Below, piece by piece: positions 13,981 through 36,742 of a stretch of DNA of 38,410 nt (position 1 is the stretch's first letter; each line of letters starts with the position of its first letter). A model generated the notes under the pieces. It had not been told where the DNA came from. It did no database searches and was given only the letters and a program-made list of their open reading frames with translations. The position numbers were made by a program, and so were the translations under genes. This DNA is from a bacterium (GTDB lineage Bacteria > Sumerlaeota > Sumerlaeia > MVZB01). The stretch lies in NCBI GenBank assembly GCA_021372575.1, contig JAJFUE010000116.1, positions 1 through 38,410 of the forward strand. Direction: 5' to 3'.

Positions 13981-14195
13981 GAGCGCCGAAGGCGCGAGAG
14001 AATACAGCCTGGGGCAGAGCGAAGCGTCGCCGCAGGATAGGATCCCAAGAAATAGAGAGCGCTGAAGGCGCGAAAGAAATGGGCGTAACGGATTTCTCTC
14101 GCTCTTTCAGAGCTACCGGAAACGATGCGACTTGACCTGGGGCGGCGCTTCGCTCTGCCCCAGGCTTTTTTCTTGTTGCGCTTTCAGCGCGCGCG
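13981..14195. repeat. Cluster of REP-like palindromes (family of the 15.3 kb transposase)
   Basis: This 343-bp gap (13919-14261) holds no gene. It contains GCGCCGAAGGCGC (13983-13995), an imperfect copy of the CCTGGGGC hairpin (14008-14036), GAGCGCTGAAGGCGC (14057-14071) and an inverted CCTGGGGC...GCCCCAGG hairpin (14136-14164). A further GCGCTTTCAGCGC (14178-14190) follows. The two 29-bp CCTGGGG units are near-identical inverted copies. The same units flank the transposase gene at 15299-15751. Confidence 0.8.
14136..14171 (+). terminator. Hairpin with T run, possible terminator of the permease operon
   Basis: CCTGGGGC and GCCCCAGG form an 8-bp GC-rich stem, followed by CTTTTTT on the plus strand. 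It belongs to the REP-like cluster but has the form of an intrinsic terminator, 218 bp after the upstream hypothetical gene. Confidence 0.5.
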
Positions 14196-14261
14196 TTTCA
14201 CCGGCCCCTCGGATTAACCGATTCCGAAACGCTAAACACAAACCCAGCTTCAGTCCTCAAT

Positions 14262-15298: not shown

Positions 15299-15751
15299 TC
15301 AATCCCACACATACGCCTCGTTATATTTAACATTATATTTTTCCAAAAACATCCTGAACTCTTCCTGAAATGTTCTTTTTCGATGATGTTCTTCCTGACC
15401 ATCAATATACGTGCGCAATGCGTCCAGATCGCGCGGGCTAATCGAAAAACATCCATACCCGCGTTGCCAAGAAAAATTCCTGAGCGACACGTACTGTTCC
15501 TTTGCCCATTTTGAGGATGACGTTTTTAACCTTTCAACCAATTGTGCAATCGTGATCGTGCGGGACAAACGAATCGCGATATGAACGTGATCCATCACTC
15601 CCCCGACCCGGTAACATTCACAATTTAGATCTCGCGCAATCGTGGCGAGATACGCATGCATCGATGAACGCGAATCCTGGTCCAGAAACGGATGCCGATT
15701 TTTCGTGCTGAAAATCACATGAACGATCACGAGGCTGAGGGACTCCGGCAT
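15299..15751 (-). CDS. REP-associated tyrosine transposase (RAYT, Y1_Tnp/IS200-like)
   Basis: This 150-residue HUH-superfamily nuclease is predicted to cut and join single-stranded DNA at REP hairpins. The start MPESLSLVIVHVIFSTKNRH is characteristic, the HUH motif is HVH at residues 55-57 (GVMDHVHIAI), and the candidate catalytic tyrosine is Y115 in RTYIDGQEEHHRKRTF. The frame is open further upstream to 15991, but that part translates the REP repeats. The ATG at 15751 has AAGGAA at good spacing and gives the usual RAYT length. REP-like palindromes of one family flank it on both sides and recur beyond rsmA. The gene looks intact. It lies tail-side of the JAB-DinG helicase gene on the same strand. 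Confidence 0.92.
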   Translation of the reverse strand: MPESLSLVIVHVIFSTKNRHPFLDQDSRSSMHAYLATIARDLNCECYRVGGVMDHVHIAIRLSRTITIAQLVERLKTSSSKWAKEQYVSLRNFSWQRGYGCFSISPRDLDALRTYIDGQEEHHRKRTFQEEFRMFLEKYNVKYNEAYVWD

Positions 15752-30642: not shown

Positions 30643-31897
30643 GCCCCAGTATCCTTCTCTTGCGAGCTGTCAGAATGCGATCGATGGCAACGACCTGCAC
30701 GACTCCCGCCACGAGCAGCGCGATCGTGAGCGCCGGGCCGTCGGGCGTCGGCGCCGCCGAAATCGGCTTGGCCACCAGCGCGATGACCGCCGCCGTGACG
30801 ACCATGTTCACGAGCGCCGCCGGCAGCATCACCTTCCAACCCAAGTCCATGAGCTGATCGTAGCGGAACCGTGGCAGCGTGCCGCGAATCCAGACGAACA
30901 AACACACCAGCAGGAACACCTTGACGCTGAACCAGAACACGCCGATCACGGCCGAGCCGACGCCGCTCACGATCCCGAAGATCGGCTGGTCGATCATCGC
31001 GTAAACCGACGCCGGCAGCGGGATCGGCCCGTAAAAACCACCGAGGAACAGCGTCGTCAAAATCGCCGAGTAGCTGAACATGTTCATGTATTCGGCCATG
31101 AAAAACATCGCGAACTTCATCGAGCTGTATTCGGTGTGGAACCCCGCGCCGAGTTCGCTTTCGCCCTCAGGCAGGTCGAACGGCAGCCGGTTCGACTCGG
31201 CGAACCCCGCGATGAGGAACAGCGCCGCGCCGATCGGTTGCTTCCAGATGTTCCAGTTCCAAACGCCTTCCGACTGGATCCCGATCAGCCGGCTCAGGCT
31301 GAATGATCCCGCGATGAGCAGCACGCCGACGAGCGACAGGCTCAGCGCGATTTCGTAGCTGATCATCTGCGCGCTCGAGCGGATGCCGCCGATCAGCGAA
31401 TACTTGCTGTTTGACGAATACCCGGCCAGCACGATGCCATACACCGCAACGCCCGTCACGGCGAGGTAAAACAGGATTCCGACTTCAAGGTCGGTGATCG
31501 CGAGCGGGATCTTATACCAGTCGCCGAAGATGTTCAGCCCGATCGGCGGGCCGAACGGCACGATCGCCAGGATCATGATCGCCGGCACGAGCGTGATCAG
31601 CGGCGCGATCCGCCACAGGACCGGATCGACCGCGCGCACACGCACTTCCTCCTTGAGGAACAGCTTTGCGCCGTCGATGAACGCCTGCAGGATGCCGCCG
31701 ATGATGAACTTGCCTTTGAGGAATCCAAGGCCCGGGATGAAGTCGAGGCCGACGCGGTTGGGGCCGACGCGCTGCTGAATGCGCGCGATCAGCACACGCT
31801 CGAGCAGCACCATGAATGGGACCGCCGTCAGCACCGCGCCGAAAATCACAACGATTTTCACGGCGAAAATGATGTTCTCGATCAGCAGTCTGCTCAT
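30632..31897 (-). CDS. nuoH: NADH-quinone oxidoreductase subunit H, copy 2
   Basis: This 421-residue NuoH has LERVLIARIQQRVGPNRVG, SSAQMISYEIALSLSLVG, AESNRLPFDLPEGESELGAG and FHTEYSSMKFAMFFMAEY, all hallmarks of the quinone-site subunit. It is longer than the usual 320-360 residues. About 20 residues (LDFIPGLGFLKGKFIIGG) are inserted between GPNRVG and LQAFIDGAKLFLKEE compared with copy 1, and the C-terminus has an extra hydrophobic segment. The start overlaps the nuoG stop in ATGA and its end overlaps nuoI by 11 bp. It is clearly a distant paralogue of the nuoH at the left edge and not a recent duplicate. Confidence 0.96.
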   Translation of the reverse strand: MSRLLIENIIFAVKIVVIFGAVLTAVPFMVLLERVLIARIQQRVGPNRVGLDFIPGLGFLKGKFIIGGILQAFIDGAKLFLKEEVRVRAVDPVLWRIAPLITLVPAIMILAIVPFGPPIGLNIFGDWYKIPLAITDLEVGILFYLAVTGVAVYGIVLAGYSSNSKYSLIGGIRSSAQMISYEIALSLSLVGVLLIAGSFSLSRLIGIQSEGVWNWNIWKQPIGAALFLIAGFAESNRLPFDLPEGESELGAGFHTEYSSMKFAMFFMAEYMNMFSYSAILTTLFLGGFYGPIPLPASVYAMIDQPIFGIVSGVGSAVIGVFWFSVKVFLLVCLFVWIRGTLPRFRYDQLMDLGWKVMLPAALVNMVVTAAVIALVAKPISAAPTPDGPALTIALLVAGVVQVVAIDRILTARKRRILGHAH

Positions 31898-34500
31898 CGC
31901 CGCGCGGTCGCCTCCTGTTCCAGGATCTCGGCGGCCGGGGCGTCGGCCGGCATGAGATTCACATGCGGCAGTCCCGCGCCGTCCGCGAGGCGAAGCCCGA
32001 GCACGTTGGCCGCGCCGTAAACGACGCCTTCGGCGAGCGTCGGATTGACCAGCACCTGGCTTGGCTGCTCCGAGCCGCCTTCGAGCAGCACCCAGTCGTT
32101 GTTCTTGAGCCCAAGACGCGCGGCGTCCGCGGTGCTGAGCTCAACGCGCGGCCGCGGCCGCAGCGCGTCAAACTGGCTCGACCGCGAACCCAAATGATCC
32201 GGCCCCTGCGAATGCTGAATCCACCACAGCGTCAGTAGGTCGCTCCGGCCCGAAGTGGCATTGCTGTTTGCAGCAATCGCCAGCTCCGGCCGCTCGCTCG
32301 AATGCAATTTGAAATCAGGCCGCTTGATCACGCCGAAATAATTGTGCGTGCCCTGCGGCGCCTCGGGGCCGGGCTGCTTGAGCGTGATCGAATCGAGCGT
32401 GACATCCGGCCGGCCCCACGCGCGCGCAAGATCTGCAAAGATTTCATGCGCGCGCTTCGAGCGGCGAGTGTCGCCGAGCTTAAGCCCGAGCAGTTCAATG
32501 ATGCGCCATTCTTCCTGCGCGTTGCCCGGCACGCGGCAACCCTTGCTCATGCGCTGAAGCGTGCCGTCGATGTCGGTCATCGAGCCGTCGCATTCCATGA
32601 ACATCGAGCCGGGGAAGACGATCGCCGCGCGTTCGGTGATCCACGACGGGAACACGTCGATCGCGATCACCATCGGCGTCGCCGCGATCGCCTTTTCGAT
32701 CAACTCGCGCCGCGGGTGATGAACGAGTTCATCGCACCTGTGCAGCACGAGCACCTTGAACTTGCCTTGCGCGGCCATTTCGAGCAGCCCCGGCGCGGCC
32801 GGGCTCGGATCGGCCGGGATCGCGCTTCCGTAAATTTCGTCGGCCTTGACGCGCAGTTCGGGATCGATCATTCGCCCCGTCGGAACGCGGTCGCTTTGTG
32901 CGCCCGCAACGAACCCGCCCTTGGCATTGCGCGCGGCCGTGACCGGCAGGAAGTGCCATCCCACGCCCAGCGCGCGCAAAATCCGCAACGCCGCCGGAAC
33001 CAGCTCTGGCGCAATCGCCCCGCCCGCCGAATCAAGCCCGAGCACGAGCAACCCATGCTCGGCCGTCACGAACTTGAACAGCTTCTCCATCCCCTGCGGC
33101 GCGTTCGCCGGGTCCTTGCCTTTTTCGAGCGCCTCGGCCAGCGCGATCAGCGTCGCCGCGATTTTCTCCGGCTGCTCGAGCCACGCCGTCTCGGCGAGGT
33201 CGCCCAGCCACGGGTTCACGCGCGAATCGATGAGGCCCAGCCGCGTGCGCTTGAGCCGCGCGCCTTCGCGTAGCCGTAGCGAAATGTCCGGCGCGGATTC
33301 GTAAAGATCTCCCGCCGCCACGATCAGCATCGCCTGGTAGGCTTTCTTGTCGAGCAGATCGAAATCGCCGTCGCTCGCCGAAAGCGCGACGCCTGCCGCC
33401 TGCGCAGCCGACTCGCTCACGAATCGCCCGCGCCAGTCGATGTACGGCGTGTGGCAAACCGCGCGCGCAAGCCTCCCCAGCAAATAAAATTCCTCGTTCG
33501 TCGAGCGCTCGCCGGCGATGAAGCACGCCTCGCCGGGCTTGCAGGCCTTGAGCGCCTCGGCCGCGCGATCAAGAGCCGGTTCCCACTCGCTCTTCACGAG
33601 CTTGCCGTCTTTCCCGCGCGCAAGCGGCTCGAGCAGCCTGTCCTCGTTATCCGTGTAAAGCGACCCGAACCGCACTTCGTTGCTGATGAACCGCGTCGTG
33701 TCCTCGTCGATCGTGTAGAGACCATGACGCCGCCGCGCGGGCGGCGTCACGCGCAAGAGCCTGCCGCCGCGCGTCCACGCCGTGACAATTCCATTCGCGT
33801 GCCGCGGCGTGGTCAGTGTCTGGCGCAGTTCCCACGGCCGCGCCTCGAAGCGGAACGGCTTGCTCGTGAGGCATCCGACCGGGCACAGGTCGATCACGTT
33901 CCCCGAGAACGGATTGGAGACCGGACCGTTGCCGAACGTGCCGATGTAATTGCGGCTGCCGTGGCCGAACACGCCCATGACGTGGTCATTGCCGACCTCG
34001 TCGCAGAACCGCACGCAACGCGTGCACATGATGCAGCGGTTGCGCTCGATGTCGATCAGCGGATCGAATTGCGGCTTGACGAACCGCCGCCGCGCATCGA
34101 CCGTCCGCGCCGTTCCCCAGCCGTATTCCATCGAGTAGCGTTGAAGCATGCACTCGCCGCCGCGGTCGCAGATCGGGCAGTCGAGCGGATGATTCATCAG
34201 CAAAAATTCCATCATCCCCTTGCGACAGTCGTCGATCAGTTCCGAATCGGTGCGGATTTTCAATCCATCCGTCACGACCATGTTGCACGAGATCTCCGGC
34301 TTCGGCCGGCCTTCGATCTCAACCAAACAAAGCCTGCAATTGCCCGCCACGGAAAGCGCCGGCTGATAGCAATAATGCGGCACGTAATGCCCGACATCGA
34401 GCAGCGCCTGGAGCAAATTCTTCCCCTTCGGCAGCATGAGCCCGCGTCCGTTGACGGTGACCGTTACCAAGACAGATGGATCTGGAATTTTCATGGTCAT
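31894..34500 (-). CDS. nuoG: NADH-quinone oxidoreductase subunit G
   Basis: NuoG is the large iron-sulfur subunit of the NADH-input module. The product (868 residues from the ATG at 34500) starts with a 2Fe-2S ferredoxin domain (HYCYQPALSVAGNCRLC, then ISC). The histidine-ligated 4Fe-4S segment (HPLDCPICDRGGEC), a 4Fe-4S motif (CIMCTRCVRFC with LCPVGCLTS) and a long molybdopterin-oxidoreductase-like domain without evident cofactor site follow. The frame extends to a TTG at 34536; ATGs at 34500 and 34494 are more likely, though neither has a strong ribosome binding site. nuoF and nuoG, normally adjacent, are here separated by a transposase element. The stop overlaps nuoH. Confidence 0.95.
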   Translation of the reverse strand: MTMKIPDPSVLVTVTVNGRGLMLPKGKNLLQALLDVGHYVPHYCYQPALSVAGNCRLCLVEIEGRPKPEISCNMVVTDGLKIRTDSELIDDCRKGMMEFLLMNHPLDCPICDRGGECMLQRYSMEYGWGTARTVDARRRFVKPQFDPLIDIERNRCIMCTRCVRFCDEVGNDHVMGVFGHGSRNYIGTFGNGPVSNPFSGNVIDLCPVGCLTSKPFRFEARPWELRQTLTTPRHANGIVTAWTRGGRLLRVTPPARRRHGLYTIDEDTTRFISNEVRFGSLYTDNEDRLLEPLARGKDGKLVKSEWEPALDRAAEALKACKPGEACFIAGERSTNEEFYLLGRLARAVCHTPYIDWRGRFVSESAAQAAGVALSASDGDFDLLDKKAYQAMLIVAAGDLYESAPDISLRLREGARLKRTRLGLIDSRVNPWLGDLAETAWLEQPEKIAATLIALAEALEKGKDPANAPQGMEKLFKFVTAEHGLLVLGLDSAGGAIAPELVPAALRILRALGVGWHFLPVTAARNAKGGFVAGAQSDRVPTGRMIDPELRVKADEIYGSAIPADPSPAAPGLLEMAAQGKFKVLVLHRCDELVHHPRRELIEKAIAATPMVIAIDVFPSWITERAAIVFPGSMFMECDGSMTDIDGTLQRMSKGCRVPGNAQEEWRIIELLGLKLGDTRRSKRAHEIFADLARAWGRPDVTLDSITLKQPGPEAPQGTHNYFGVIKRPDFKLHSSERPELAIAANSNATSGRSDLLTLWWIQHSQGPDHLGSRSSQFDALRPRPRVELSTADAARLGLKNNDWVLLEGGSEQPSQVLVNPTLAEGVVYGAANVLGLRLADGAGLPHVNLMPADAPAAEILEQEATARR

Positions 34501-34574
34501 GCCGGTGAAATGCCCTGATTTTCCATGCTTGCTCAACCAAACGCTTGCTGGTTCTCATTCAAAATTACTGATGT

Positions 34575-34659
34575 CCCAGTCCCGCAGGGACGATCGCTTT
34601 CAGCCCGCCATGACAATGGCGGGTAACGTCGCGATTTGCATCCCGAGTCCCGGAGGGAC
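34575..34659. repeat. REP palindromes on the 3' side of the second transposase
   Basis: Three hairpins in series: GTCCC-GCA-GGGAC (34579-34591), CCCGCCAT-GACA-ATGGCGGG (34604-34623) and GTCCC-GGA-GGGAC (34647-34659). The block 34575-34623 is a near-perfect inverted copy of 35187-35236. Confidence 0.9.
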
Positions 34660-34671
34660 GGCTGATTCTGT

Positions 34672-35127
34672 TTACCCGAAAACGTAATCCTCCTGATATT
34701 CGATCATGTGCCTCTTCAAGAACGCCTTATATTCTTCCTCGAACGTCCTCTTGCGATGATGCTCAATCTGATTACGAATGTATTTTGTCGTTGCCTCGAT
34801 CTGTGAAAACCCGTTCGTGAAAACTCCGTATCCTTCCTGCCAGGCGAATTTATATCGTGACCTAAATTCCTCGTTCACCCATTTTGACGATCCCGCTTTA
34901 ATCAATTGAATCCCCTTCGCGGGCGCCATCGAAGGCGGAATCATCATGAAAATGTGGCAATGATTTTCGGTCCCTCCCGCTATCAGCGATTTCATCCCGT
35001 TTTCTCTGGCGATCCCGCCCATGTAGTCCCACAGGCGCCCCATCCAGTCCGGCAGAATCAGTTTCGTTCGGTTTCGAGTCGAGAAAACGAAATGATACAG
35101 ACAACTGCCGTAGGTGTGACCGCCCAT
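34672..35127 (-). CDS. REP-associated tyrosine transposase (RAYT), second type
   Basis: This 151-residue Y1_Tnp protein has the start GSCLYHFVFSTRNRTKL, an HUH motif with cysteine in the middle (H56-C57-H58 in ENHCHIFMMIP), GSSKWVNEEF, and the candidate catalytic tyrosine Y116 in KYIRNQIEHHRKRTFEEEY. It differs strongly from the transposase at 15.3 kb and has its own REP family (GTCCC/GGGAC and CCCGCCAT/ATGGCGGG hairpins) arranged as mirror images on both sides. The element of about 660 bp sits between nuoF and nuoG, in the same orientation as the nuo genes. It looks intact and may be read from the nuo transcript. Confidence 0.92.
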   Translation of the reverse strand: MGGHTYGSCLYHFVFSTRNRTKLILPDWMGRLWDYMGGIARENGMKSLIAGGTENHCHIFMMIPPSMAPAKGIQLIKAGSSKWVNEEFRSRYKFAWQEGYGVFTNGFSQIEATTKYIRNQIEHHRKRTFEEEYKAFLKRHMIEYQEDYVFG

Positions 35128-35148
35128 TGCACTGGTCCTTTCTCATCC

Positions 35149-35236
35149 GTCCCTGCCGGGACTCGGTTTCCTCTCCGTCATCGTTTCCCGCCATTGTCAT
35201 GGCGGGCTGAAAGCGCCCGTCCCTACCGGGACTGGG
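35149..35236. repeat. REP palindromes on the 5' side of the second transposase
   Basis: GTCCCTGCCGGGAC (35149-35162), CCCGCCAT-TGTC-ATGGCGGG (35187-35206) and GTCCCTACCGGGAC (35219-35232) mirror the three hairpins on the other side in order and orientation. Confidence 0.9.
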
Positions 35237-35259: not shown

Positions 35260-35427
35260 CTACTTGATGTTCTGCTTCACATATCCATAAACCATGAGAG
35301 CGAGCAAGGGACTCATGAACATCACCACGTCTAGGCCAGTTGGCCTGTTCATATAACCGATTGCGTAAACGATACCCTCCAGTGGCATAAATATAAGGAA
35401 AAAGAAAATTGCGTGTTTCACCTTCAC
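35260..35427 (-). CDS. Small membrane protein downstream of nuoF (55 aa)
   Basis: A short frame begins with GTG at 35427, 4 bp after the nuoF stop codon, and ends with TAG at 35260. A second GTG at 35421 is preceded by AAGG. The product has a basic start (VKVKH), a hydrophobic helix (AIFFFLIFMPLEGIVYAIGY), a short loop MNRPTG and a second hydrophobic stretch (VVMFMSPLLALMVYGY), ending with KQNIK. This is a plausible two-helix membrane protein with a positive-inside pattern at both ends. It is more A+T-rich than nuoF. I do not recognise a family. It ends just before the REP block of the transposase element. Confidence 0.55.
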   Translation of the reverse strand: MKVKHAIFFFLIFMPLEGIVYAIGYMNRPTGLDVVMFMSPLLALMVYGYVKQNIK

Positions 35428-35431
35428 AATT

Positions 35432-36742
35432 TTATCCAAATCTCATGTATCCCTTTTCAAACGGGCATCTTCCCTGATCGATATGCGCCTGGAATTCTGC
35501 CCTGAACCTCGGAATGGTTCTTACCAGACTCCCCGTCGCGAACTCGCCGAGCGCGCAGATCGACCGGCTCGTGATATTGCCGCAGATGTCTTCCAATAAT
35601 TCCACGTCGCCGTTCACGCCCTGTCCCGCCTCGAGCCTTTTCAAGATTTTATACATCCAGTTCGTGCCTTCGCGGCACGGCGTGCATTGCCCGCAGCTTT
35701 CGTCCCAATAAAAGTGCATTAAATTTAATGACGCCCAGACAAAGCACACCGTCTCGTCCATCACGATGATACCGGTTGAGCCCAAAAACGTGTTGTATTT
35801 GCGCGGGCTGTCAAAGTCCATCACCACATCGAGTTCGTCCTCGAACAGCATCGGCACCGACGACCCGCCGGGGAACACCGCCTTGAACTTGTTGCCGTCG
35901 CGAATTCCGCCCGCGTAATCATAAATCAGTTCGCGCATCGTGACGCCAAGCGGCAATTCGTAATTGCCCGGCCGGTTCACGTGGCCACTGATCGAATACA
36001 CCGTCATGCCCGGCGATTTTTCGGTGCCGATCCCCTTGAACCACTCGACGCCGCGCCGCATCACCTCGGCCGCGATCGCCAGCGTTTCGATGTTGTTCAC
36101 GACCGTCGGCGACATGTATAAACCCTGGATCGCCGGGAACGGCGGCCGGTTCCTCGGGTATCCGCGCTTGCCCTCGATGGACTCAATCAGCGCGGTCTCC
36201 TCACCGCAGATATATGCTCCGGCGCCGAGGTGGATCGCGACTTCGCAATTGAAGTCGCTACCCAATATTCCTTTGCCGATCAAGCCCGCGGCGCGCGCGT
36301 CGTCGATCGCGCGCTGCATCTGGCGCGTGGCCTCGTAGTATTCTTTTCTGATGTAAACATAGACCGATTCCGAAAGCGTCGCGAACGCCGCGATCAACGC
36401 GCCTTCGATCAGCAGGTGCGGCCGTTGTTCCAGCAACGACCGGTTGCTGAACGTCCCCGGCTCGCTTTCGTCGGCGTTCACGCACACGTAATGCGGCCGC
36501 TCGCGATTGCGCGGAATAAAGCCCCACTTCACGCCGGCCGGGAAACCGGCGCCGCCGCGCCCGCGAATGTTGGCTTCCTTAATCAGATCGAGAACCTTGT
36601 CCGGTCCCATCTCCAGCGCGCGCTTCAGCCCGTCATAGCCCCCCTTGGCGCGATAATCGGCCAGCGACTCAGAACGGCCGGAATACACGGTCCCGGTCAC
36701 GCCGGCAGACAGGATGGGTTCGTAGTTATTCGTAGCAGCCAT
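35432..36742 (-). CDS. nuoF: NADH-quinone oxidoreductase subunit F
   Basis: NuoF holds the NADH-binding site, FMN and the 4Fe-4S cluster N3, where electrons enter complex I. The 436-residue protein has the nucleotide-binding loop RGRGGAGFPAGVKWGF, the FMN region NADESEPGTF, GAGAYICGEETALIESIEG, and the N3 ligands in ESCGQCTPCREG plus the distal cysteine in SICALGEFA. The frame is complete and of normal length. It is followed after 4 bp by a small membrane-protein frame and then the transposase element. A 131-bp repeat-filled gap separates it from nuoE. No clear Shine-Dalgarno sequence precedes the ATG. Confidence 0.97.
   Translation of the reverse strand: MAATNNYEPILSAGVTGTVYSGRSESLADYRAKGGYDGLKRALEMGPDKVLDLIKEANIRGRGGAGFPAGVKWGFIPRNRERPHYVCVNADESEPGTFSNRSLLEQRPHLLIEGALIAAFATLSESVYVYIRKEYYEATRQMQRAIDDARAAGLIGKGILGSDFNCEVAIHLGAGAYICGEETALIESIEGKRGYPRNRPPFPAIQGLYMSPTVVNNIETLAIAAEVMRRGVEWFKGIGTEKSPGMTVYSISGHVNRPGNYELPLGVTMRELIYDYAGGIRDGNKFKAVFPGGSSVPMLFEDELDVVMDFDSPRKYNTFLGSTGIIVMDETVCFVWASLNLMHFYWDESCGQCTPCREGTNWMYKILKRLEAGQGVNGDVELLEDICGNITSRSICALGEFATGSLVRTIPRFRAEFQAHIDQGRCPFEKGYMRFG

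Follow-up and report, generated by a model that had tools for sequence, protein, structure and literature searches.

What kind of element separates nuoF from nuoG in this bacterial genome, and does it move? The earlier note on the window (the whole stretch of 38,410 nucleotides analyzed here) described it as a RAYT gene between perfectly mirrored REP hairpins and as a complete, possibly mobile single-gene element. The gene, tnpA, its hairpins and its neighbors have the following coordinates.

31894-34536, minus strand: nuoG, left neighbor (open reading frame named from sequence; orthologues adjacent in relatives)
34578-34623, minus strand: match to the Rfam family Acido-Lenti-1 (RF01687), 41.4 bits (gathering score 37)
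34579-34591, plus strand: outer short hairpin of the left side, GTCCC..GGGAC
34600-34603, plus strand: foot TCAG of the left central hairpin
34604-34623, plus strand: central hairpin of the left side, CCCGCCAT..ATGGCGGG, with compensatory changes
34647-34659, plus strand: inner short hairpin of the left side, GTCCC..GGGAC
34672-35127, minus strand: tnpA, predicted Y1 (HUH) transposase of 151 aa (open reading frame, PF01797, NF033573, motifs, structural model and fold matches)
35149-35162, minus strand: inner short hairpin of the right side (mirror)
35187-35206, minus strand: central hairpin of the right side (mirror), with compensatory changes
35219-35232, minus strand: outer short hairpin of the right side (mirror)
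35432-36742, minus strand: nuoF, right neighbor

All parts of the claimed arrangement, three hairpins on each side of a gene that lies between nuoG and nuoF, are present, and tnpA has the same orientation as both neighbors, here as well as in two other members of the family. The mirror order holds but the mirror is not perfect, the two sides being 82-90% alike. The outer blocks are inverted copies over 48 nt (34581-34628 and 35182-35229, 90% complementary), and the extreme ends (34575-34584 and 35227-35236) are complementary at 10 of 10 positions. All four occurrences of the pattern GTCCC N2-6 GGGAC in the window lie within the element, compared to an expectation of 0.13, and none of 100 shuffled sequences reached this number; the two GTCCC hairpins of one side, which enclose the central hairpin, are repeated in direct and not in inverted orientation. 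The shared orientation suggests that tnpA might be expressed together with complex I, and a simple scan of the element region for terminator-like sites found none. A short hydrophobic frame is located between nuoF and the element (window about 35262-35423, minus strand), and in genome G002 a different extra frame lies between the element and nuoG (L066, after 2376).

The tnpA product matches PF01797 (E 6e-25) and NF033573 (70.9 bits, cut-off 55) and contains the motifs NHCH, WQ and YIRNQIEHH. The last of these is a form of Y---Q--HH, the tyrosine motif of TnpA_Y1 subclass 1.2, which was defined by this motif together with WQ (Quentin et al., 2018; PMC6006769); WQ is invariant in our alignment, and the length of 151 aa compares with approximately 148 aa for the subclass. 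The class 2 tyrosine motif Y---NP is absent. In a tree of 61 proteins, which does not settle the monophyly of subclass 1.2 relative to class 1.1, class 2 forms a separate branch (support 100/100) and the tnpA product clusters with its two family orthologues. Searched against PDB sequences, the family profile matches the transposases of IS608, ISDra2 and Sulfolobus, and in the fold ranking for the predicted structure (pLDDT 92) transposases of these types come out best, with TnpA_REP (4er8) behind them. Because Y---NP is missing and the protein falls outside the class 2 clade, it is not a RAYT in the strict sense, and the RAYT identity proposed earlier is set aside in view of the tyrosine motif and the tree position; judged by its sequence, the predicted product is a member of TnpA_Y1 subclass 1.2. 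A second subclass 1.2 tnpA is present in the window (15305-15730, minus strand); it is 36% identical to the first, and the hairpins that mirror each other around it (mirror score 56) are unrelated in sequence to those of the first. The genome also encodes class 2 (Y---NP) Y1 transposases of 245-261 aa (L249 and L250, contigs C127 and C76), with mirrored flanks at one of these two loci.

The class 1 fold and the Pfam and NCBIfam names would fit an ordinary IS200-type insertion sequence between nuoF and nuoG. This appears highly improbable given that close copies are missing from the genome, where the tnpA paralogues are at most 40% identical as opposed to the near-identical copies typical of IS200/IS605, that the flanks are mirrored instead of forming same-strand ends, and that the gene occupies one fixed site in three genera. 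Indeed, tnpA is located at the nuoF-nuoG junction in all three family genomes examined, each from a different genus; the two orthologues show 71% and 64% protein identity, have the same orientation and are likewise enclosed by mirrored three-hairpin flanks, each in its own sequence. An empty junction was seen outside these three genomes, in G003 of the same order, where nuoF and nuoG are adjacent. For the one estimable pair, dN is 0.19 and dS, which is near saturation, is 1.84 (ratio near 0.1). Occupation of the same junction in three genera at 64-71% identity implies that the gene is long settled and not recently mobile; most likely, it entered the junction before the family diverged and was then kept. 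The suggested mobility therefore has to be divided: the gene is static at one junction, whereas the small hairpin units are dispersed. The note had named two observations as jointly speaking against it, and only fixation at the site was found; other copies of the hairpins do exist (40 genome matches).

These copies were identified by a DNA search of the draft genome (4.63 Mb, 214 contigs) with the hairpin unit, which located at least 40 distinct places besides the element (40 of 62 candidates were scored). The expectation of a REP-like transposase unit whose hairpins recur elsewhere was thereby borne out: inverted repeats border the gene and recur dispersed in the genome, a property by which RAYTs are recognized. 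Base pairing in the stems is maintained by compensatory changes, with 22 cells altered on both sides versus 8.5 in shuffles. The units of the tnpA paralogues L013 and L015 are dispersed in the same genome as separate families. Two inverted copies of the unit that belongs to the L013 tnpA family lie in the window at 13983-14198.

About half of the 40 copies read are enclosed in an element of 140 nt that is bounded by the 13-bp inverted ends CAGGGTGTTGAAA (own-genome loci L071-L103), so another transposase may have spread those. A script applied to the 40 copies detected both ends in 15, of which three (L091, L096 and L097) show an exact 4-bp duplication, and 33 such ends were found in the genome compared to 0 in the control. 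These observations would be accommodated by a scenario in which another transposase was the main agent of dispersal of the copies, via a miniature inverted-repeat element with captured hairpins, and the mirrored flanks of tnpA are a relic. We consider this scenario unlikely because the CAGGGTGTTGAAA ends are missing from at least 16 of the 40 copies and the same plan is dispersed, in unrelated sequence, in other genomes.

The breadth of this plan was assessed on 80 named loci from a profile search of genome contigs and 26 loci from the own genome and its relatives, at least two of the sampled loci duplicating one another. The search profile was built from 7 proteins; a set of 20 proteins had no conserved stretch. 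In the mirror test, the upstream flank was compared with the reverse complement of the downstream flank, and scores above the 99.9% shuffle level were counted as passing. The test was passed at 90 of 103 related loci and failed at 13, compared to none of 25 nuoF flanks and 0.8% of random windows used as controls; flanks taken from different loci passed in 9% of cases. The flanks contain on average 3.06 short hairpins, versus 0.59 in shuffled sequence. According to the record names, from which the phylum spread was taken and most of which denote draft MAGs, the loci include members of Acidobacteria, Planctomycetes, Verrucomicrobia, Bacteroidetes, Calditrichaceae, Zixibacteria, a Desulfococcaceae and a Magasanikbacteria MAG. 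Despite the differing sequences, the same plan recurs, namely a short hairpin, a longer central hairpin, a short hairpin, the gene and the mirror image; in Flavobacterium, the hairpin order differs from that plan. Among 19 Y1 loci judged not to belong to subclass 1.2, which include a few unclassified ones and one truncated frame, 6 passed, of which 4 are class 2 copies from a single genome. A TGA motif common to all units on the 3' side of the outer hairpins was considered and rejected, the enrichment being only weak (0.219 versus 0.164). Subclass 1.2 has been described as devoid of IS properties and listed with no REPs (Quentin et al., 2018; PMC6006769), and a literature search of partial coverage retrieved no report of repeats for it; this listing, which is a described property of the subclass and not its defining motif, does not hold here, where both mirrored units and dispersed copies were found.

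The units are also specific to their genomes. When 12 units were joined and searched in 12 genomes, 147 of the 150 best unit matches fell in the unit's own genome and the 3 exceptions were confined to three genomes of the same family. At least five unit copies are known in 9 of the 12 genomes (for the own genome, from the separate DNA search); in one, G061, the matches were the gene's own two flanks only. Cognate pairing of this kind has likewise been reported as a rule for RAYTs with REPs (PMC6006769). Directly 5' of the central stem, TAG is present in 61 of 109 cases on the gene-pointing strand, as opposed to 9 of 109 on the opposite one, and in many relatives the central hairpin has an unpaired NTAG foot. 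The letters of this foot are reminiscent of REPs, whose GTAG foot is involved in the selection of CT or CA cleavage sites (PMC8266576). The units of the own genome have the foot TCAG, which keeps the last two bases of GTAG and departs from the GT[AG]G by which RAYTs are recognized.

The Rfam match listed above connects these units to Acido-Lenti-1, a motif of unknown function that Rfam files as an sRNA (RF01687), that Weinberg et al. rated as likely RNA (PMC2864571) and for which a 2026 paper discusses protease regulation as a possible role (PMC13298647). The model spans roughly half of the unit, namely its outer and central hairpins; the right-hand block (35187-35233, plus strand) scores 30.4, below the gathering score of 37. 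The model has 77 matches in the own genome, 42 in G001 and 18 in G002, counts to which other hairpin families built on this plan contribute. In a set of 39 genomes related at class level or more closely, tnpA and Acido-Lenti-1 are both present in 20 and both absent in 15, and 4 have only one of the two (p 6e-7, with kinship between genomes ignored). No other Rfam family exceeded the cut-off at the flanks of 20 loci. In the Desulfococcaceae bacterium HSG8 (L134, 879-3395), more than 20 Acido-Lenti-1 matches form tandem arrays around a subclass 1.2 tnpA. Given the 41.4-bit match, the published rating as RNA, the co-orientation with nuo and the conserved base pairs, the hairpins might instead be a transcribed RNA element, for example a stabilizer or processing site in the nuo transcript, with tnpA a mere neighbor. 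We find this improbable, as mirrored units surround related tnpA genes in many phyla in unrelated sequence and the units are dispersed in a genome-specific manner; the mirror orientation further means that at most one side can be read in a given sense.

Gain, loss and inversion of units can be followed in Flavobacterium. At one junction of Flavobacterium cutihirudinis a unit is present where one relative has a solo hairpin and seven others lack any unit, the empty junctions being too diverged for target-site duplications to be read. At a second junction, the unit in a relative is flipped, that is, 98% identical to the reverse complement, in flanks that are 85% alike (L201 and L215, two species). 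Inverted repeats can flip by template switching, and a flipped unit is therefore no proof of enzyme action.

Taken together, we consider it probable that the locus is a REPtron-like unit made up of a subclass 1.2 transposase and the hairpin repeats cognate to it. IS608 TnpA and E. coli TnpA_REP recognize hairpins, cleave near them and rejoin the ends, and from this chemistry, together with the association of gene and repeats, we infer that TnpA may cut and spread the units. When the locus becomes single-stranded, as lagging-strand template or during repair, the three hairpins would fold; a TnpA dimer would recognize a hairpin together with the unpaired foot on its 5' side, which is TCAG at this locus and NTAG in many relatives, the tyrosine of YIRNQIEHH would cleave near the foot while the HUH histidines hold the metal, and TnpA would rejoin the ends. 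Acting in trans on solo three-hairpin units, the enzyme could cause their excision, insertion or flipping, so that units would spread between genes while the tnpA gene itself stays put. A broader proposal, which we regard with somewhat more doubt than belief, is that subclass 1.2 TnpA represents a separate IS200-derived lineage of repeat-spreading enzymes in many phyla, with multi-hairpin single-stranded DNA units that include Acido-Lenti-1, and that these enzymes can also invert units in place. A transposase subclass listed without repeats would gain a conserved cognate hairpin unit, and the orphan family Acido-Lenti-1 a testable identity; if true, hairpin-repeat systems occur around IS200-like enzymes as well as classical RAYTs. 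Both the enzyme and its presumed substrate are short, which puts the central claim within reach of a test on a single protein and a handful of oligonucleotides.

Among known systems, REPtrons (RAYT/TnpA_REP, class 2) share with this locus the single Y1 gene flanked by inverted hairpin repeats, the dispersed copies, a repeat family of its own for each gene, the foot beside the stem and a low-copy, kept gene. They differ in having Y---NP in place of Y---Q--HH and GTAG-footed REPs in place of TCAG (NTAG in many relatives), whereas the units described here comprise three hairpins, the outer ones direct. IS200/IS605 elements (IS608, ISDra2) are similar in fold, catalytic motifs and, as a putative feature here, hairpin substrates; these elements (subclass 1.1) transpose through a single-stranded circle. 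Unlike them, the present system has no near-identical copies, no tnpB and mirrored instead of same-strand ends. Subclass 1.2 as described (PMC6006769) agrees in Y---Q--HH, WQ, the size of about 150 aa and the low identity between the copies of one genome, but its published members come mostly from Cyanobacteria and Bacteroidetes and were listed as lacking REPs, in contrast to the regular repeats and many more phyla found here. The Acido-Lenti-1 model (RF01687) fits the outer and central hairpins, but is filed as an sRNA and accounts for roughly half of the unit. The CGTC REPs (Di Nocera et al., 2013; PMC3733652), compared here by description only, are short palindromes without a known dedicated transposase, and their stems of 8-9 bp with a CGTC tag are unlike our units. 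Finally, TIRYTs (PMC3733652) are also Y1 genes with inverted repeats, but 20 of the 26 described fall in subclass 2.1, unlike the subclass 1.2 gene at the nuoF-nuoG junction.
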